DNA from: Candidatus Auribacterota bacterium
GTDB taxonomy: Bacteria > Auribacterota > JAFGBW01
DNA: 17,772 nt
Reading direction: 5' to 3'
NCBI GenBank assembly: GCA_016932965.1
Contig: JAFGBW010000192.1
Coordinates: 1-17,772, forward strand
Shown here: positions 9,506-17,772 of the stretch, piece by piece
How the letters are laid out: each line of letters opens with the position of its first letter
Numbering within the stretch: the stretch's first letter is position 1
Notes under the pieces: model-generated
The model's database searches: none
Told to the model about the DNA's origin: nothing
Seen by the model: only the letters and a program-made list of their open reading frames with translations
Translations under genes and position numbers: made by a program

Positions 9506-11575
9506 TCATGCTTTCTTCAGTGAAGAAATAGAAAGGGCTTCAAAAAGATTTATCTGTTCATCTGTCCAGAGTGAAATACTTTTGTCTGGAACGGGGATGG
9601 TCCAGCCGTAACGGTCTTTCAGTTCGTCCTGTATTGATTTTGAAGCTGTCGCAGCAAAAACCTCCACCCCCGGTTCGTCTTCCTTACCCTCCTTCACGCT
9701 TTTTGATGCGTAAAACAGGTGAAAAGAATCCGCCAGTCTTGTCAGGACCGGGATCAGCTTAAAATAGCGGTTTGAAACATGAAAAACCATGACCCCTTCA
9801 GGGGCCAGATGTTTCAAATACAGACCCATGGCTTCGCGGGTGATGAGATGAACCGGAATGGCATCACTGTTATAGGCATCCAGGAGCATGAGATCGTACC
9901 GGTTTGGACTTTTCATGAATTCGATCCGGGCGTCTCCTTCAATAATACGAAGATGAGCCCTTGATTGGGATATATAGGTGAAATAATTTTTAGCCACATA
10001 GATGATATCAGGATTGATTTCATAATAATCCCAATTCTCTCCTTGCCGGGAATAACCCAGCATCCCTCCTGTACCCAGTCCCAGGGCAGCCACATTCAAG
10101 CCTGGTTTATTCCTCATCAATTTGAAGACATCGCCGAAAGGGCCGTTTTCCCTGTAATAATAAAGAGGAGTCATTTGGTTTTTCCCTGACCCTGAAAGCA
10201 GCTGGGCCCCGTGAAGAGTCGAACCGTGATACAGATACCGGATGTTGTTTTCGGTGCGTATTTCCGTGATACCGTAGAAATTACGGAAGGAGAGTTCCTG
10301 CAGGCTCTTTTCAGGTTTAAAAAAATAGTAAGGAAGAACGAGCGCCGCGTTCAATACGAGTCCAACTGATAATCCTGCCAGGTAGGGATTTTTTAAAAAA
10401 AGTTTCCAACGTCTTAAGGAATGAATCGCAAAGGAGCCTGATACCAAAAGCATAGCGAAATAGATATCCGCCAAAAGGGAAGGAGAATGTCTCATGATAA
10501 CGGGAAATCCAAAATTCACCAGCATACTTCCCATGCATCCTCCGGCTGCGATCAGAATATAATACAAGGACAAATTTCCGTGATGAACGGGTTTTAATTT
10601 TACAAGAAGCCGGTGGGACAGAAGACAAAAAGTAAAAAGAAAAGAGTTGAAAAACAGGATCCAGTAAAAAAGATGCGGATGAATTGCCACAACCCAGATA
10701 AAAAGAAAAACGGTGACGCCGGCAGAAAAGAGATTCAAAGCACCCAGCCATTTCTTCTCAGAAAAGGCAAAAACAAAACTCAAAAGATATCCGGCCAGGG
10801 GAAAAATCCACAGAAAAGGCGCCGGTGAAATGTCCATGGAAATGATGTTCGTAACAGCGATCAGAAGCGAGGAAGTTCCCATACTGATCCAGATCCATAA
10901 AAAAACGTACTTCTTTATAAGGAGCCGGAAAATAACATGCTCATGATCCTTTTCCTCCTGTTTTCCGGGAAGGCAAAAAAAATGAAGCATCACATATAAA
11001 AAATAGAGAACCTGCCAGACTTGGAATTGAAAAGTCAGCGTGAAAAAAGGCTGAATTAAAAACGGATAAATCAAAATGGCAAAAAAGGAGCCAAAATTGG
11101 AAAAAGTATAAAGCACGTAGGGATTCTTTGCCCGAGGAAGTCCGGAAGCAGACAACCATTTATGTTGTAAAATGGTAGTAGCGGACAAAAGCATAAAGGA
11201 TAATCCGATGTTTTTGAGAAGTAAAATGCCGATAGAAAAAATAGGGTAGCCGGAATTTCCTGAAGAAGGGAAGGAAATGGGGAAAAGCATCAGGCTCAAT
11301 AGAAGAAGAGCCAAATGGAGGAATGCTCTCTTCCTGAGAAAAAAAGAAGTGATATAATGCCCGTGATAATACCCCAGCAATAAAAAAATCTGAAAAAACA
11401 TCATGCACGCCGCCCAAATGCTGAAACTTCCGCCGAACAAGGGCAGAAGCTTCTGGGCCGTCATGAGCTCAAGTGAAAAAAGCAAATAGGCGCCAAGCCA
11501 GGTGATGATATAATACAGATAAGGCAAAGCTTGCTTTGCCCTGTCTGGATTAGCGTGATATTCCTTTATTCTCAT
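9506..11575 (-). CDS. Membrane-anchored spermidine-synthase-like protein (fused multi-TM and SAM-type domain)
   Basis: The N-terminal roughly 415 residues form about ten to twelve membrane segments (for example LGAYLLFSLELMTAQKLLPL near 27-46), and the C-terminal 195 residues are a spermidine-synthase-like Rossmann domain. Family marks are LYHGSTLHGAQLL just before the domain, LGLGTGGML near 498-506 (nucleotide-binding glycine loop), EGDAR near 546-550 and LLDAYNSDAIP near 565-575, where the Asp pair matches the spermidine synthase active-site region. This architecture is widespread in bacteria; whether its members make polyamines is mostly untested, and the substrate here is unknown. The frame is open to an ATG at 11620, but I chose the ATG at 11575 (MRIKEYHANP). 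That shortens the overlap with the upstream MFS gene from 71 to 26 bp and leaves a normal short N-terminus before the first helix. Neither start has a clear ribosome binding site. Confidence 0.82.
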   Translation of the reverse strand: MRIKEYHANPDRAKQALPYLYYIITWLGAYLLFSLELMTAQKLLPLFGGSFSIWAACMMFFQIFLLLGYYHGHYITSFFLRKRAFLHLALLLLSLMLFPISFPSSGNSGYPIFSIGILLLKNIGLSFMLLSATTILQHKWLSASGLPRAKNPYVLYTFSNFGSFFAILIYPFLIQPFFTLTFQFQVWQVLYFLYVMLHFFCLPGKQEEKDHEHVIFRLLIKKYVFLWIWISMGTSSLLIAVTNIISMDISPAPFLWIFPLAGYLLSFVFAFSEKKWLGALNLFSAGVTVFLFIWVVAIHPHLFYWILFFNSFLFTFCLLSHRLLVKLKPVHHGNLSLYYILIAAGGCMGSMLVNFGFPVIMRHSPSLLADIYFAMLLVSGSFAIHSLRRWKLFLKNPYLAGLSVGLVLNAALVLPYYFFKPEKSLQELSFRNFYGITEIRTENNIRYLYHGSTLHGAQLLSGSGKNQMTPLYYYRENGPFGDVFKLMRNKPGLNVAALGLGTGGMLGYSRQGENWDYYEINPDIIYVAKNYFTYISQSRAHLRIIEGDARIEFMKSPNRYDLMLLDAYNSDAIPVHLITREAMGLYLKHLAPEGVMVFHVSNRYFKLIPVLTRLADSFHLFYASKSVKEGKEDEPGVEVFAATASKSIQDELKDRYGWTIPVPDKSISLWTDEQINLFEALSISSLKKA

Positions 11576-12803
11576 AAACAGGGATAACCATCTTTCTGAA
11601 TTCTCCCAGCCTGGATGCAAAAAGCACTGCTGCCATGATGCAGCCTGTTCCGCTGATCAGCAAAGTACAGGGAGCGCCGATCCGTTCTGCCAGCACTCCG
11701 GCCATGATGCTTCCGAAAGGCGTCATCCCCATGAAAGCCATGGTGTAAAAACTCATCACTCTTCCGCGCTTGTCTTCATCCACGAGCGTTTGCAAAATGA
11801 TGTTGCTGGAAGCCATCTGCATCATCATTGAAAAACCAGCCAGGCTCATCAAAATAAGGGAAAGGGGAAGGTGGTGTGACTGCGAAAACAAGATCAAAGA
11901 CAATCCAAACGCAACTGAGGATAATACCAGCCACCGCGTCAATCCTCTGACATTTTTTCTTGATGCCAGAAAAAATGCAGCGCAAAGAGCCCCGACTCCG
12001 GATGATCCCATTAAAAATCCCAGCGTATGAGGCCCGCCAAAAAGGATTTCCTTGGCAAAGACGGGCATGAGCACGACATAGGGAGTTCCGAGTAAACAGA
12101 TCAACGCCAGAAGAAACAGAATGGACTTGATGGGAAAAAAATTCATCACATAACTCCAGCCCTCTTTCAGCCCTTTGGTGATATGCGGATGCGGAAGCTT
12201 CTGGTTTTGTTTTGCAGCAATTTCCATATTAAAAAGCGCGGCAATCACAGCCAGATAACTGATGCCGTTTATTAGAAAACAAATCCCTTCTCCAACTATG
12301 CCGATCATGACGCCGGCCATCGAGGGCCCCAGTAATCTCGCGCTGTTGACCATGGAAGAATTCAGCGCAATGGCATTACCCAGATCTTCGGGTTTTTCGA
12401 CAATATCCACCGTGAAAGCCTGACGAACCGGAATATCCACGGAATTGACACAGCCGAGAAAGATGCCCAAACCTACCAGGTGCCAGATGGCAATCTGGTC
12501 TGATAAAACCAGATAAGCCAGAAGAAAAGCCTGAAACATGGCAAGAATTTGAGTGATGATGATGATGCGGTGCCGGTTCCACCGGTCAGCCATGATACCT
12601 CCGAACGGGGCGAAAATAAAGGTGGGCACCATGCTTGAGAAACCGATGAGTCCCAGCAGAAAGGGCGATCGGGACATACGGTAAACCAGCCAGCTGATGG
12701 CAATTTGCTGCATCCAGGTTCCGATAAGGGAAACGGTCTGCCCGGCAAAAAATAAGCGGTAATTTTTATATCGAAAAGCGCGAAAAAGCAAGTTTAGCTG
12801 CAT
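11550..12803 (-). CDS. Major facilitator superfamily transporter (EntS/MFS_3-like)
   Basis: The 417-residue protein has the 12-helix pattern of a proton-coupled MFS exporter of the inner membrane. FRYKNYRLFFAGQTVSLIGT (10-29) is the usual start of MFS_3/EntS-like proteins, followed by WMQQIAISWLVY. GGIMADRWNRHRII (68-81) is the motif A loop between helices 2 and 3. PVRQAFTVDIV (about 125-135), NSSMVNSARLLGP (about 148-160) and DEDKRGRVMSFYTMAFMGMTPFGS (C-terminal half, split here only by position about 342-365) are characteristic of this subfamily. Substrate cannot be read from the sequence; relatives export siderophores, macrolides or other small molecules. Its 3' end overlaps the start of the spermidine-synthase-like gene, so the two are cotranslated. 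A 12-bp palindrome lies directly before the ATG at 12803, covering the likely ribosome binding site. Confidence 0.9.
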   Translation of the reverse strand: MQLNLLFRAFRYKNYRLFFAGQTVSLIGTWMQQIAISWLVYRMSRSPFLLGLIGFSSMVPTFIFAPFGGIMADRWNRHRIIIITQILAMFQAFLLAYLVLSDQIAIWHLVGLGIFLGCVNSVDIPVRQAFTVDIVEKPEDLGNAIALNSSMVNSARLLGPSMAGVMIGIVGEGICFLINGISYLAVIAALFNMEIAAKQNQKLPHPHITKGLKEGWSYVMNFFPIKSILFLLALICLLGTPYVVLMPVFAKEILFGGPHTLGFLMGSSGVGALCAAFFLASRKNVRGLTRWLVLSSVAFGLSLILFSQSHHLPLSLILMSLAGFSMMMQMASSNIILQTLVDEDKRGRVMSFYTMAFMGMTPFGSIMAGVLAERIGAPCTLLISGTGCIMAAVLFASRLGEFRKMVIPVYENKGISR

Positions 12804-13049: not shown

Positions 13050-14567
13050 ATGCAATGTACTGGTTTGCTGATTGAGGGCATCGTTCATCTCAGCATCATT
13101 GTTATTATTTTATTTTCCCTGACCCTCATTCTCATGGGACCTGAAAATAAAGATGGAAAACAGCTTCATCCTTTGTTTGGTAAATACACGATCAGGATTC
13201 CCAATATCATGTCCTGGCTGCGGCTTCCTTTTGGAAGCATCATCATTTTAGTCCATCTGCTGCCAAATCTTCACACGCCGTTCTGGTTTCTCCTGGTTCA
13301 TCTTTCGTTTTTCGTTGCCTGCCTGTTTGATTATCTGGACGGCAGTTTCGCTAGAAAATGGAATGCCGTGACCGAAGACGGCAAATGGCTGGACCCGGCC
13401 TCTGACAAATTCGTCACCTTTTGTCTGTCTGTCACGGCCTTTATTTACGGCGAGCTTCGCTGGTGGGCTTTTGCCATATTGATCATCCGTGAAGTCATCA
13501 GCATGATTCAGAGAAAACGGCTGCTCAGGCAGGGGATTGATGTCAGCGCCAGATGGCTTGGCAAATTAAAAACCGGAGTCCAGTTCATGGTTCTTTATAT
13601 TCTGGTCCTAAGGATCAGCATGCTTCCGGGCACACTTCTCCTGGATCAGGGCGCTTTGAGGTTCTCATCCAACATGATTTTATGGGCCATGCTGTTTTTA
13701 TGTTTCTGCACCGTTATTTCCCTGTTCCCTTTTTTTCAGTCCTTTTCATACGTCAATGATTACACCAAAACACAGAGGGAGGACTCCAAACGGCCGTGGT
13801 ATATCGTCGCGATTCCGAACCTTTTTACCATAGGCAATTACATGGGGGGCGTGACGGCCGTTTATTTTGCCATGCCTGAAGTGCATGTGGAATACAGGCC
13901 TTTTGTCACCATGTTCTGGGTCTGCATAGCCGGTATTTTTGACACTTTTGACGGTCCCATTGCCAGAAAGCTCAAAGTCCATTCGGAATTCGGAGCCTGC
14001 CTGGATTCCTCGACTGATTTATCCACCTTTGGCCTGGCTACAGCCACTATCATTTTTCTGCAGTTTTCAGACTTTCGTCAGTCTTTTTCTCTTTTAGGCC
14101 TGTTTCTGGCAGTTTTCTTTTTCATTTTTGTTCATCTGCGGCTGGCCCGTTTCACGGACCTTCACAGCCAGCAGCTGGACAAGGGAAAAAAAGAGGATTT
14201 TGTCGGGCTCCCGTCTCCTGCCGGAGCCTTTACCGCTTTGATTCTGTTTACTTTTTTTGAAAATCCCGTTGTTTTGTCCATCCTGATCATTCTTGTCTCC
14301 CTTCTCATGTACAGCAAATTCGATTACATCAGCCATTCCAACGCGTTTAAAAACACATTTTACCGGTATTTGATGATCCCCTTTTTCCTTGTCGGAGTGG
14401 TGATGCTCATGTTTCTGCTGTTCCAGCAGCCTTTTGTCAGCGCGCACACCTCCCGCGCCTTGATTGTTTATTTCAACATCTGTTCCTGGATATTGACGGT
14501 ACCGCTTCTTATCTATATCGCGGACGGCTTAAGAAGAGGAAAAAGACAAGATCTTTTAATAGAATAA
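13050..14567 (+). CDS. Fused PgsA-like and PssA-like CDP-alcohol phosphatidyltransferase
   Basis: Two complete CDP-alcohol phosphatidyltransferase domains lie in one 505-residue membrane protein. Both carry the catalytic pattern DxxDGxxARx8GxxxDxxxD. Domain 1 has Asp94, Asp97, Asp115 and Asp119; domain 2 has Asp298, Asp301, Asp319 and Asp323. Domain 1 (about 45-235) resembles phosphatidylglycerophosphate synthase: RIPNIMSWLRLP (49-60), IIREVISM (145-152) and WLGKLKTGVQ (169-178). Domain 2 (about 250-480) resembles phosphatidylserine synthase: IPNLFTIGNYMGG (255-267) and GLPSPAGA (386-393). The protein would use CDP-diacylglycerol with glycerol-3-phosphate and with serine, at the inner membrane. 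An extra helix (about 8-29) precedes domain 1. AAAGG eight bases before the ATG supports this start. The gene is convergent with the following glycosyltransferase gene, 21 bases apart. Substrate assignments are inferred from motifs; alternatives are other CDP-alcohol transferases such as an archaetidyl-type enzyme. Confidence 0.88.
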   Translation: MQCTGLLIEGIVHLSIIVIILFSLTLILMGPENKDGKQLHPLFGKYTIRIPNIMSWLRLPFGSIIILVHLLPNLHTPFWFLLVHLSFFVACLFDYLDGSFARKWNAVTEDGKWLDPASDKFVTFCLSVTAFIYGELRWWAFAILIIREVISMIQRKRLLRQGIDVSARWLGKLKTGVQFMVLYILVLRISMLPGTLLLDQGALRFSSNMILWAMLFLCFCTVISLFPFFQSFSYVNDYTKTQREDSKRPWYIVAIPNLFTIGNYMGGVTAVYFAMPEVHVEYRPFVTMFWVCIAGIFDTFDGPIARKLKVHSEFGACLDSSTDLSTFGLATATIIFLQFSDFRQSFSLLGLFLAVFFFIFVHLRLARFTDLHSQQLDKGKKEDFVGLPSPAGAFTALILFTFFENPVVLSILIILVSLLMYSKFDYISHSNAFKNTFYRYLMIPFFLVGVVMLMFLLFQQPFVSAHTSRALIVYFNICSWILTVPLLIYIADGLRRGKRQDLLIE

Positions 14568-14588: not shown

Positions 14589-17500
14589 CTAGGACGCTGC
14601 ACGAATCGGGCGCAGATAACTATATGGCGGCGCCCCTCTGAAAATTTGACTTTCTGTGAATTCCAGCAGAAAAATGCAATAGTCTTTTTTATTATTATCA
14701 TGCCAATGGGCTTCTCGTTGAGTAATATCATTCACTGTAAGAAGTCTGCCCAATTGTAATAGCTGCATTAATTCTTTAGCTTTTTCAGGCCTAAGGTCAG
14801 CTGTATCAAAAAACAGTTTCACTGCAATCAGTTGCCCGTTCACTTTGGGTATCTCGACATCAAACACATATTCGTCCGTTGCGTCAGGGCTTGTATCCAT
14901 CAAAATGTCCACCACATTGGCTGGATTATTATCGCGTGTGATAGTGATGTCATTTGTTTTAATTTTGATGCCCTGCGGCAGGTTCCCCTGCCATTTCTCG
15001 ACAGCATTGGGGCCAATACCCTCGAAAGTCAGATGAGCGACTCGTCCTCTTGATTTGGGTATTCTCACCGTGAAACTCAATGCATGACGATCATCTCTGC
15101 ATTCATCCTCACGGATAAACCAAATTTCTTTTGTATGTTCTCTAACAATTATTTTTTTAGGATATTTTACCAGATGATAACCGGATGTGACGATGATTTC
15201 ATATTCACCGGATATATCAGTAGGGATACGTAAAGGATAAAAGTTCCCTTTTTCAGCCGGAGGGCCTTCAATCTGATCAAAATAGATTTTCTTTCCGTCT
15301 TTGCCTAACAGATAAGCTTTCATGCCGTTCACATGGTTAAAACAGGATAAATTAACAGTAACAACGTCTCCGATAAAGAATTCCAAGCCATTATTGTTTG
15401 GAGTAGTCCTGCCTTTTGTTTTCGCTGTTACTATGATGTCCTCTATCCTGGCATGGGCTTCTTTATTTGCAGGCTGTGGAAGGGGTTTATTCAGATAATA
15501 ATTGGGGGATTCAGGATCATAATAATCTTCCCAAAGCCTTAAGTATTCCGCGGCGGTGTGTCTGGCATCCAGGACCTGGCTTAACCGGACGCTCGTTGAT
15601 TGATAGGTCGCCAATGCGGTGGAGCCGTCCATTTTAAGGTCATGCATTTTTTTAACGTCCATGATCAAGTCATAATAGGATCCGGGATCTTCATCTTTCG
15701 GCACAAGAAGATTGCCTTTCCCCAATGTGTTAAAATTCACGGGAACTCCGTGTTTTTGGATGATCCCTTCGTGATAGGGCGGCCCCATGGAAAGGGCGCC
15801 GTTTGCCGTGGCATTGGATTCCGTGTACTCGCTTGCTCCGGTGCTTCTGTCTGAATCCTGAATCTGGATGTCCAAAGCAGGCATGAGTTTCAACTGGTCC
15901 TCCAGGGCCCAGTAAGGTTTATAAATAAATTTTCCGATCTGGTTGGGCTGCCGTTCGCCTGTCCGGGTCCAGTGGGGAATAAGCGTTTTATTGATATATT
16001 CTTCAAGTTCCTGCATTTTTCTCATCAATATTTTGGATTCTTCATAACTCTGAACATTGCCGAAAATCACCACCTGAACCCCGTTTTTAACCAGGTTGAT
16101 GATATTATTGCTGTCATCCTTGATGAGGTTCCCCTTGGCATCAAGAAAATTGAATGCCCTTCTTCCGCGTTTTTCGTCCACCCACCTGCCTATGTATCCT
16201 ACGGTCATCTTGTTCGCGTCCAAACCCAGGGATTCACCCGCATGCGTTGCCTTTTGCTTGGCCAGTTTTTTGATTTTATTGACCGATGCAGGGCTTAGAT
16301 TGGGATACTTCTCATCCTTAGGGATTTCACCGCTATCCTGTAATTCTTTCAGATATTCAGTAAAATATTTTGTTGAATTTTCAATGATATCTCCATTGGT
16401 AATCCCGTACAGCCGTTTTAATGCCGGGTCCCATTCCAGGACTTCTTTTGAATGAAGCGCTGATACGGCCTTGGCCACATCCGAACAAAGAAGCCCGGCA
16501 CTCGTGTGATTGAATCGGACATCCCCGTTCACATTGGGAAGCTCTGATTCCTGAGGCGTCAAGGGAGGTGTTCCGAAAAGCCAGTGAAGGTCTTCACGGA
16601 TGCCGATATTCAACAGGACTTCTCTGGCATCATTATAACTTTTCAGCTCACCAAAAAAACCGCGGTTTTTATAGGTATGCGTGGTTCCTGAAAACATAAA
16701 ACCCCGGTAAAAACGGGCCTTTTCCTCCAATTCCTGGTATTTGTCTTTTTGTAAAAGGGGATCTGTCCTGCCCAGTTCTTCCATGGTTTCAATTAAATCC
16801 GTTAAACGAAAAACTGATGCCAGAAGGGTCTGCGCGTCATTGGTATTGATGATGGGAGGTTTCCATTTGGCTCCCTGTTCCTTGAATTTTTTCCATTGAA
16901 TTCGCTTGATATACTCCCACTGGGCTTTTGCCAGAAATGTACTGAACTGAATATTGGTTGGAAGAGGAGGAGCAGCCCCTTCATAGTCCTGTCTATAAAG
17001 GCTGGCCCGGCCGTCAATTTTTGAATAATTATACATTTTCCGGCAGAAAGAATATCCATAAGGAAACGTGGTGTCTGAAATCAAGAGTCTTGGGAAAGGA
17101 GCCCCCTCTTTATATTCCTGTTCAATTTTTATCCCGATCTCCTGTTCCTGGCCCCTTCTTCCGAATTTCATGGTGAATTCATCCACAGTCTGCATGTTCT
17201 CAATCGGATAACTTGCCTGTGTATAATCAGCCGGCAATTCATCCGGGTCTTCTTTTTTGTTTTTCTTGGTGTTTTTAACAAACTGGTATTTGGGTTCAAA
17301 AGAAATGACATTGGCTTTCAAGCGTCTCATCCACGTGATATGGTACTGTTCAACACGGCCCAAACCTCCGCTGACTTCTGAAAATTCAGGGGTCAGATCA
17401 TAGATCTCCACATCCTTTAAATGAGGACAGACCCTGTCCAGCCATTCTTCTCTTGCATCCTCGTTAAAATGCAGGTCAAGGGAATTGATGAGCGGCAGGT

Positions 17501-17772
17501 GATATTCCGGTGCCTGTTCCTTCCTGAGCCTTTGAACCACTTCCGCCAGTTTTTGCTGCATGGAAGGATCCAGCATCATGACCGCATGCATGAAAGGATA
17601 CCGGCTTTCTACGGGGTAGCATTCTTCAAAAGAAGTTGCCCAGGCATAGGCTTTTAAACAGTCGATGATATTTTTATCCCCTTGATTCAGTATTTGTTCC
17701 AGATCCTTTTTAATAAAATCCGCATCATGGGACCAGACAGCCAGGTTTCGTTTAGTTATACTCAAATAATAC
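14589..17772 (-). CDS. Large glycogen-synthase-like GT-B glycosyltransferase with C-terminal beta-rich domains (5' end may be outside the window)
   Basis: At least 1058 residues. Positions below count from a TTG at 17765, but the frame stays open to the window edge, so the true start may lie further right. EVSGGLGRVEQYH at 130-142 matches the glycogen synthase (GT5) N-terminal loop that binds ADP-glucose. PPIINTNDAQTLLASVF at 303-319, THTYKNRG at 362-369 and LYGITNGD at 452-459 keep the GT5 order. VGYIGRWVDEKRG at 522-534 opens the C-terminal Rossmann domain. Residues 640-661 (RSTGASEYTESN, then ATANGALSMG) resemble the glycogen phosphorylase loop, but the pyridoxal-phosphate lysine position is Asn651, so a phosphorylase is unlikely. 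Residues about 775-1058 are beta-rich, with Ig-like segments. It probably elongates an alpha-glucan, but donor and product are unknown. The gene is much longer than ordinary glycogen synthase (about 480 residues). Confidence 0.72.
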   Translation of the reverse strand, partial: YYLSITKRNLAVWSHDADFIKKDLEQILNQGDKNIIDCLKAYAWATSFEECYPVESRYPFMHAVMMLDPSMQQKLAEVVQRLRKEQAPEYHLPLINSLDLHFNEDAREEWLDRVCPHLKDVEIYDLTPEFSEVSGGLGRVEQYHITWMRRLKANVISFEPKYQFVKNTKKNKKEDPDELPADYTQASYPIENMQTVDEFTMKFGRRGQEQEIGIKIEQEYKEGAPFPRLLISDTTFPYGYSFCRKMYNYSKIDGRASLYRQDYEGAAPPLPTNIQFSTFLAKAQWEYIKRIQWKKFKEQGAKWKPPIINTNDAQTLLASVFRLTDLIETMEELGRTDPLLQKDKYQELEEKARFYRGFMFSGTTHTYKNRGFFGELKSYNDAREVLLNIGIREDLHWLFGTPPLTPQESELPNVNGDVRFNHTSAGLLCSDVAKAVSALHSKEVLEWDPALKRLYGITNGDIIENSTKYFTEYLKELQDSGEIPKDEKYPNLSPASVNKIKKLAKQKATHAGESLGLDANKMTVGYIGRWVDEKRGRRAFNFLDAKGNLIKDDSNNIINLVKNGVQVVIFGNVQSYEESKILMRKMQELEEYINKTLIPHWTRTGERQPNQIGKFIYKPYWALEDQLKLMPALDIQIQDSDRSTGASEYTESNATANGALSMGPPYHEGIIQKHGVPVNFNTLGKGNLLVPKDEDPGSYYDLIMDVKKMHDLKMDGSTALATYQSTSVRLSQVLDARHTAAEYLRLWEDYYDPESPNYYLNKPLPQPANKEAHARIEDIIVTAKTKGRTTPNNNGLEFFIGDVVTVNLSCFNHVNGMKAYLLGKDGKKIYFDQIEGPPAEKGNFYPLRIPTDISGEYEIIVTSGYHLVKYPKKIIVREHTKEIWFIREDECRDDRHALSFTVRIPKSRGRVAHLTFEGIGPNAVEKWQGNLPQGIKIKTNDITITRDNNPANVVDILMDTSPDATDEYVFDVEIPKVNGQLIAVKLFFDTADLRPEKAKELMQLLQLGRLLTVNDITQREAHWHDNNKKDYCIFLLEFTESQIFRGAPPYSYLRPIRAAS

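Follow-up and report, generated by a model that had tools for sequence, protein, structure and literature searches.

PgsA-like and PssA-like domains joined in one polypeptide: a putative bifunctional phospholipid synthase

A PgsA-like and a PssA-like CDP-alcohol phosphatidyltransferase domain are joined in a single 505-residue polypeptide of a Candidatus Auribacterota bacterium, encoded at 13050-14567 on the + strand of the window (the whole stretch of 17,772 nucleotides that was analyzed). We propose that this protein is probably a bifunctional PGP and PS synthase and has, in some lineages, taken the place of the separate genes. It combines two known enzyme types and is best filed as such, not as a new kind of enzyme.

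In the proposed scheme one integral-membrane enzyme would have two distinct active sites, both on the cytoplasmic face of the membrane. For the N-terminal half we infer transfer of the phosphatidyl group of CDP-diacylglycerol (CDP-DAG) to glycerol-3-phosphate, giving PGP, which PgpA would then convert to PG; the C-terminal half would transfer the same group to L-serine, giving PS, which Psd would then convert to PE. The simplest mechanism would be two independent metal-dependent transferases sharing one CDP-DAG pool. The pgsA-like and pssA-like genes would have been joined once, in the ancestor of all known copies. The fusion would then have displaced separate pgsA and/or pssA in the window lineage and apparently in some Desulfobacterota, and elsewhere would be an additional enzyme alongside them.

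PgsA and PssA both draw on CDP-DAG, for which they compete, and the usual explanation of how bacteria set the PG:PE ratio is that each enzyme is regulated on its own. If the proposal is right, a lineage with both on one chain has no means of varying the amount of one enzyme relative to the other, and the ratio would have to be set via kinetics or substrate supply. For synthetic membrane-lipid pathways the fusion would also offer a compact gene, and it would serve to examine whether PgsA-type and PssA-type domains can pair.

Structure and authenticity of the fusion gene

The open reading frame runs from an ATG at 13050 to a stop codon at 14567 with no internal stops. Pfam family PF01066 matches the protein twice, the best stretch being residues 50-216. 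The N-half domain (13197-13697, +) scores 96.6-97.7 bits and the C-half domain (13809-14297, +) 61.8-63.7 bits, so that the C-half by itself also exceeds the gathering cut-off of 22 bits, which was applied to each half. The family signature D-x2-D-G-x2-A-R-x8-G-x3-D-x3-D is complete in both halves, as DYLDGSFARKWNAVTEDGKWLDPASD at residues 94-119 (13329-13406, +) and as DTFDGPIARKLKVHSEFGACLDSSTD at residues 298-323 (13941-14018, +). The first-pass annotation, made from the window alone, had described two synthase-type domains in a single polypeptide with every signature Asp kept in both, and this description is correct: the residues are D94, D97, D115 and D119 in the N-half, invariant in the alignment, and D298, D301, D319 and D323 in the C-half.

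A scan of genome contigs recovered seven full-length orthologues, with identities of 57-63% across the entire alignment and 58-64% in the best segments, in MAGs titled Desulfobacteraceae, Desulfobacterales, Desulfobulbales or Proteobacteria. Within the class of one of these MAGs, nine of 291 genomes are carriers; the copy in one carrier (G249) is merely split by contig ends. The linker and the signature positions are conserved across 13 further full-length orthologues, which excludes joining by chance, frameshift or assembly, and the full-length orthologues in Desulfobacterota show that the fusion is real and old. The possibility that a frameshift has hidden two separate genes, which the first-pass annotation had left standing, is thereby ruled out, as the reading frame is uninterrupted besides.

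It is thus very improbable that the gene is an artefact of misassembly, frameshift or a contaminating contig, and as regards the fusion itself this reading is refuted by the orthologues. The window genome is a metagenome-type draft in 300 contigs, and no full-length match to the fusion was found in 43 other genomes of its phylum, nearly all of which match via separate PgsA-like and PssA-like genes only. Set against this are the uninterrupted frame, the independent orthologues, and a tetranucleotide composition of the contig that correlates better with that of the genome's own unmasked contigs (r 0.55-0.75) than with that of Desulfobacterota loci (r 0.18-0.48). Contamination was rejected, the composition being native to the window genome.

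Hydropathy gives the order of parts as an extra helix, the helices of the N-domain, a charged 28-residue linker and the helices of the C-domain. The extra N-terminal transmembrane helix (residues ~8-29; 13071-13136, +), located by the alignment and by hydropathy averaged over 14 orthologues, is present in all orthologues examined and canonical PgsA is without it. The polar linker (residues 229-256; 13734-13817, +) is conserved in the alignment and is predicted from hydropathy and charge to be cytosolic. A cytosolic position of both predicted active sites agrees with this pattern.

The fusion gene stands alone, and its neighbors are conserved only inside one Desulfobacterota clade, on the prfC side. 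Gene neighborhood was considered as a possible pointer to a special pathway and was dropped because the neighbors differ from lineage to lineage. By eye, the window also holds on the minus strand a 704-residue frame (9506-11620) for a multi-helix membrane protein with a C-terminal spermidine-synthase-like domain, and a 1058-residue frame (14589-17765) that runs to the contig end and is glycosyltransferase-like with a long C-terminal extension.

Family affinities of the two halves

Among NCBIfam models the N-half is matched best by TIGR00560 (pgsA, 84.1 bits), followed by ClsA (49.4) and pssA (29.4), and its nearest solved structure is Staphylococcus aureus PgsA (PDB 7drj, E 3.8e-12). It shares with PgsA the CDP-alcohol fold, the four Asp, and the motifs LDP...DK and GKxKT. 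The latter, a PgsA-type acceptor-side motif, reads GKLKT in the fusion (residues 171-175; 13560-13574, +) and aligns with GKIKT of S. aureus and GKWKT of Desulfobacterota PgsA. It differs from PgsA in being joined to a PssA-type domain, in its extra N-terminal helix, and in its score: the TIGR00560 equivalog cut-off of 109.1 bits is reached neither by the N-half nor by the whole protein (96 bits), whereas canonical PgsA proteins of carrier genomes score 131-181 bits.

The C-half scores 83.9 bits with the archaetidylserine synthase model, 81.9 with TIGR00473 (pssA) and 27.2 with pgsA, and its nearest solved structures are those of Methanocaldococcus jannaschii PSS (MjPSS; PDB 7b1k, E 1.6e-14, and 7pow). 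In MjPSS, Asp62, Ser63, Asp66, Arg101, Arg104 and Phe105 bind the acceptor serine or form an anion network (PMC8633023). All six are matched in the alignment, by D319, S320 and D323 within the catalytic signature and by R364, R367 and F368 within RLARF (residues 364-368; 14139-14153, +). The PssA-type motif GLPSPAG (residues 386-392; 14205-14225, +) aligns with GLPIPAG of MjPSS; this motif and GKLKT both lie where the first-pass annotation had placed them. With type II PssA the C-half thus has in common LDS...D, RLARF, GLPSPAG and all the serine-site residues. It differs in sitting C-terminal to a PgsA-like domain, in reading LDSSTDLSTFG where type II PssA has LDSLADxVSFG, in having no adjacent psd, and in falling below the TIGR00473 equivalog cut-off of 107 bits (the whole protein scores 100.6).

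A maximum-likelihood tree of 52 domains, comprising fusion halves and standalone enzymes, is split at 100/100 between N-halves with PgsA and C-halves with PssA. By this split as by the NCBIfam scores, PgsA is therefore the CDP-alcohol subfamily nearest to the N-half. The canonical clades are supported at 99/99 and 99/100, and the fusion halves lie outside them on long branches; each half is, as judged from the tree and scores, a divergent subfamily of its enzyme type. The earlier assignment of the halves to PgsA and PssA therefore stands as regards family affinity (NCBIfam, structures, tree) and catalytic residues, but falls short of formal identity with either enzyme, both equivalog cut-offs being missed. 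A single fusion event would be compatible with the tree. In a quick tree the window copy branched, for N-half and C-half alike and with moderate support, outside the copies from Desulfobacterota; a more careful one places it there at 82/88 for the N-half, while the C-half gives no resolved placement.

Are both halves catalytic? Only one might be, with the other serving a regulatory or structural role in place of the second dimer protomer. A fused inactive partner is conceivable, since these transferases dimerize with shared anion-binding residues (PMC8633023). In all 14 complete orthologues, however, each half retains the signature Asp, Gly, Ala and Arg, and conservation is equal between the halves (59-68% and 61-66%), so that we regard a single catalytic half as improbable and favor two working sites.

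CDP-alcohol transferases are dimers, and in several structures both protomers contribute anion-binding residues; PSS dimerizes via helices 1, 3 and 4, the other solved CDP-alcohol transferases via helices 3 and 4 (PMC8633023). Because these interfaces differ, two fusion chains that dimerize through contacts between like halves would be at least as plausible as an internal pseudo-dimer. For the oligomeric state we infer that an internal PgsA/PssA pair is a less obvious arrangement than contacts between chains of the homodimer type. An AlphaFold model of the fusion (pLDDT 48, pTM 0.42; input alignment of 8 sequences only) is too poor to speak to packing.

The bifunctional inositol-phosphate cytidylyltransferase / CDP-inositol transferase (IPCT-DIPPS, NF041135) is likewise a fusion that occurs in nature and has a CDP-alcohol phosphatidyltransferase as one of its parts. 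There, however, the partner is a soluble cytidylyltransferase and not a second CDP-alcohol transferase of other specificity, and the model matches our fusion weakly (24 bits). In the open-access (PMC) literature, a body of 5.39 million papers, we found nothing relevant on a fusion of PgsA with PssA, on a bifunctional PS synthase or on tandem CDP-alcohol domains, subscription papers being outside the scope of the searches. Domain-architecture databases may already list such two-domain proteins.

The phospholipid pathway in the window genome

The window genome (3.14 Mb) has just three PF01066 matches: the two halves of the fusion and a 222-residue orphan on contig C15 that fits neither the pgsA nor the pssA model of NCBIfam. 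A genome search of the kind suggested by the first-pass annotation, run with PF01066 on this 92.6% complete draft, thus found no separate pgsA or pssA; such genes could sit in gaps of the draft. The PLD-family matches are a 480-residue protein with a single PLD domain and a weak match in a 722-residue frame, and no E. coli-type (PLD-type) PssA was seen among them.

Genes for the flanking steps are present, with cdsA on contig C70, pgpA on C23 beside yidC, and psd on C144. Because no alternatives were found, the routes from CDP-DAG via PGP to PG and from CDP-DAG via PS to PE would each lack their middle step unless the fusion supplied it. The fusion thus appears to be the sole source of PG and PE at the branch point in this genome, and the presence of psd without any other PssA gives indirect support to PS synthesis by the C-half. 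Most of the relatives examined within the phylum have psd next to pssA; in the window genome another gene follows psd. We accept more readily that the fusion is bifunctional than the stronger proposal that the window lineage and a few Desulfobacterota make all their PG and PE with one two-site polypeptide, at a fixed 1:1 stoichiometry and with both housekeeping genes displaced; we consider the case for the latter evenly balanced.

A homolog of the orphan occurs in one Desulfobacterota carrier, G060. The two (222-228 residues; L003:1438-2103 on C15 of the window genome, G000, and L061:1375-2061 on C76 of G060) are 49% identical over 215 residues and match neither PgsA nor PssA. The G000 orphan is divergent to a leuB-like gene that is 68% identical to leuB of a Desulfobacterota carrier. 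A stretch of G000 contig C100 (L129) is 92% N, its letters being masked or withheld in the record.

Standalone enzymes in the carrier genomes

Standalone genes were counted as PF01066 matches in draft genomes for which completeness is not given. By this count eight of the 15 carriers (G062, G064, G065, G078, G142, G167, G249 and G284) have both a standalone PgsA and a standalone PssA. In these the fusion is an extra enzyme and cannot alone fix the PG:PE ratio, so the idea put forward in the first-pass annotation, that placing the enzymes in one chain would fix their ratio, is not supported as a general role. Such coexistence fits an alternative in which the fusion is a specialized accessory enzyme acting on other acceptors or CDP-lipids, while housekeeping PG and PE are made elsewhere; the N-half could, for example, make cardiolipin or another phosphoglycerol lipid, and the C-half could use another amino alcohol.

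The divergence of both halves also fits an accessory role, as does the position of the fusion gene in G060, the only genome with this arrangement, where it lies 48 bp downstream of a gene for a 2226-residue polyketide/PUFA-type synthase (L099:2342-9022). So do motif changes in the subclade G062-G065. There GKxKT is replaced by GKIKA and, only there, the second Arg of RLARF (R367) by Tyr or His, the fusion genes (L007, L008, L009 and L010) reading GKIKA with RLAYF or RLAHF. Because of these changes, and because each of the four genomes also has a standalone PgsA-like gene, the activity of the fusion may be drifting in this subclade.

Several observations tell against the accessory role, and we consider it unlikely. 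No housekeeping alternative was found in the window genome, the N-half scores well above ClsA with the PgsA model (84 versus 49 bits), the serine-site residues are retained, the genes flanking the fusion differ between lineages, and four carriers lack pssA at its conserved place. That place is in a Desulfobacterota operon, lon-tsaB-psd-(pssA)-leuB-greA (loci L152, L153, L154 and L151 versus L086-L090). In five carriers (G078, G142, G167, G249 and G284) pssA sits between psd and leuB (tsaB-psd-pssA-leuB), flanked by lon and greA wherever the stretch extends that far; in four (G060, G061, G098 and G194) the order is lon-tsaB-psd-leuB-greA, with 58-142 bp between psd and leuB. This absence from a conserved position makes the preferred reading, a PGP and PS synthase, directly testable.

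The absence of pgsA is less informative. A PgsA above the cut-off is missing in 74 of the 291 genomes of the class, that is, in 3 of 9 carriers and 71 of 282 non-carriers, so no enrichment of pgsA loss among carriers was seen in this set. As PgsA is absent about as commonly without the fusion, lack of pgsA is no evidence by itself.

The four carriers with the pssA-less operon are not all alike. G098 keeps a canonical PgsA and psd, and no other PF01066 PssA was found in it. Both standalone enzymes are missing from G060, G061 and G194; each of these genomes has a second, unrelated double CDP-alcohol frame with a PssA-like C-half, which could be the source of PS there. Another carrier, G059, shows the fusion only; psd was not found in its small assembly (1.9 Mb).

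The second double frame (427-500 residues; L105:9072-10574, L115:9434-10903 and L114:4490-5773) was found, among the carriers examined, only in the three without standalone PgsA and PssA. It resembles the fusion in having two CDP-alcohol domains, the C-terminal one PssA-like, but by sequence it is a separate family; its N-half signature is altered (for example, FDLVDGWFAARF...LADRIMD), and the G194 copy has no clear PgsA match.
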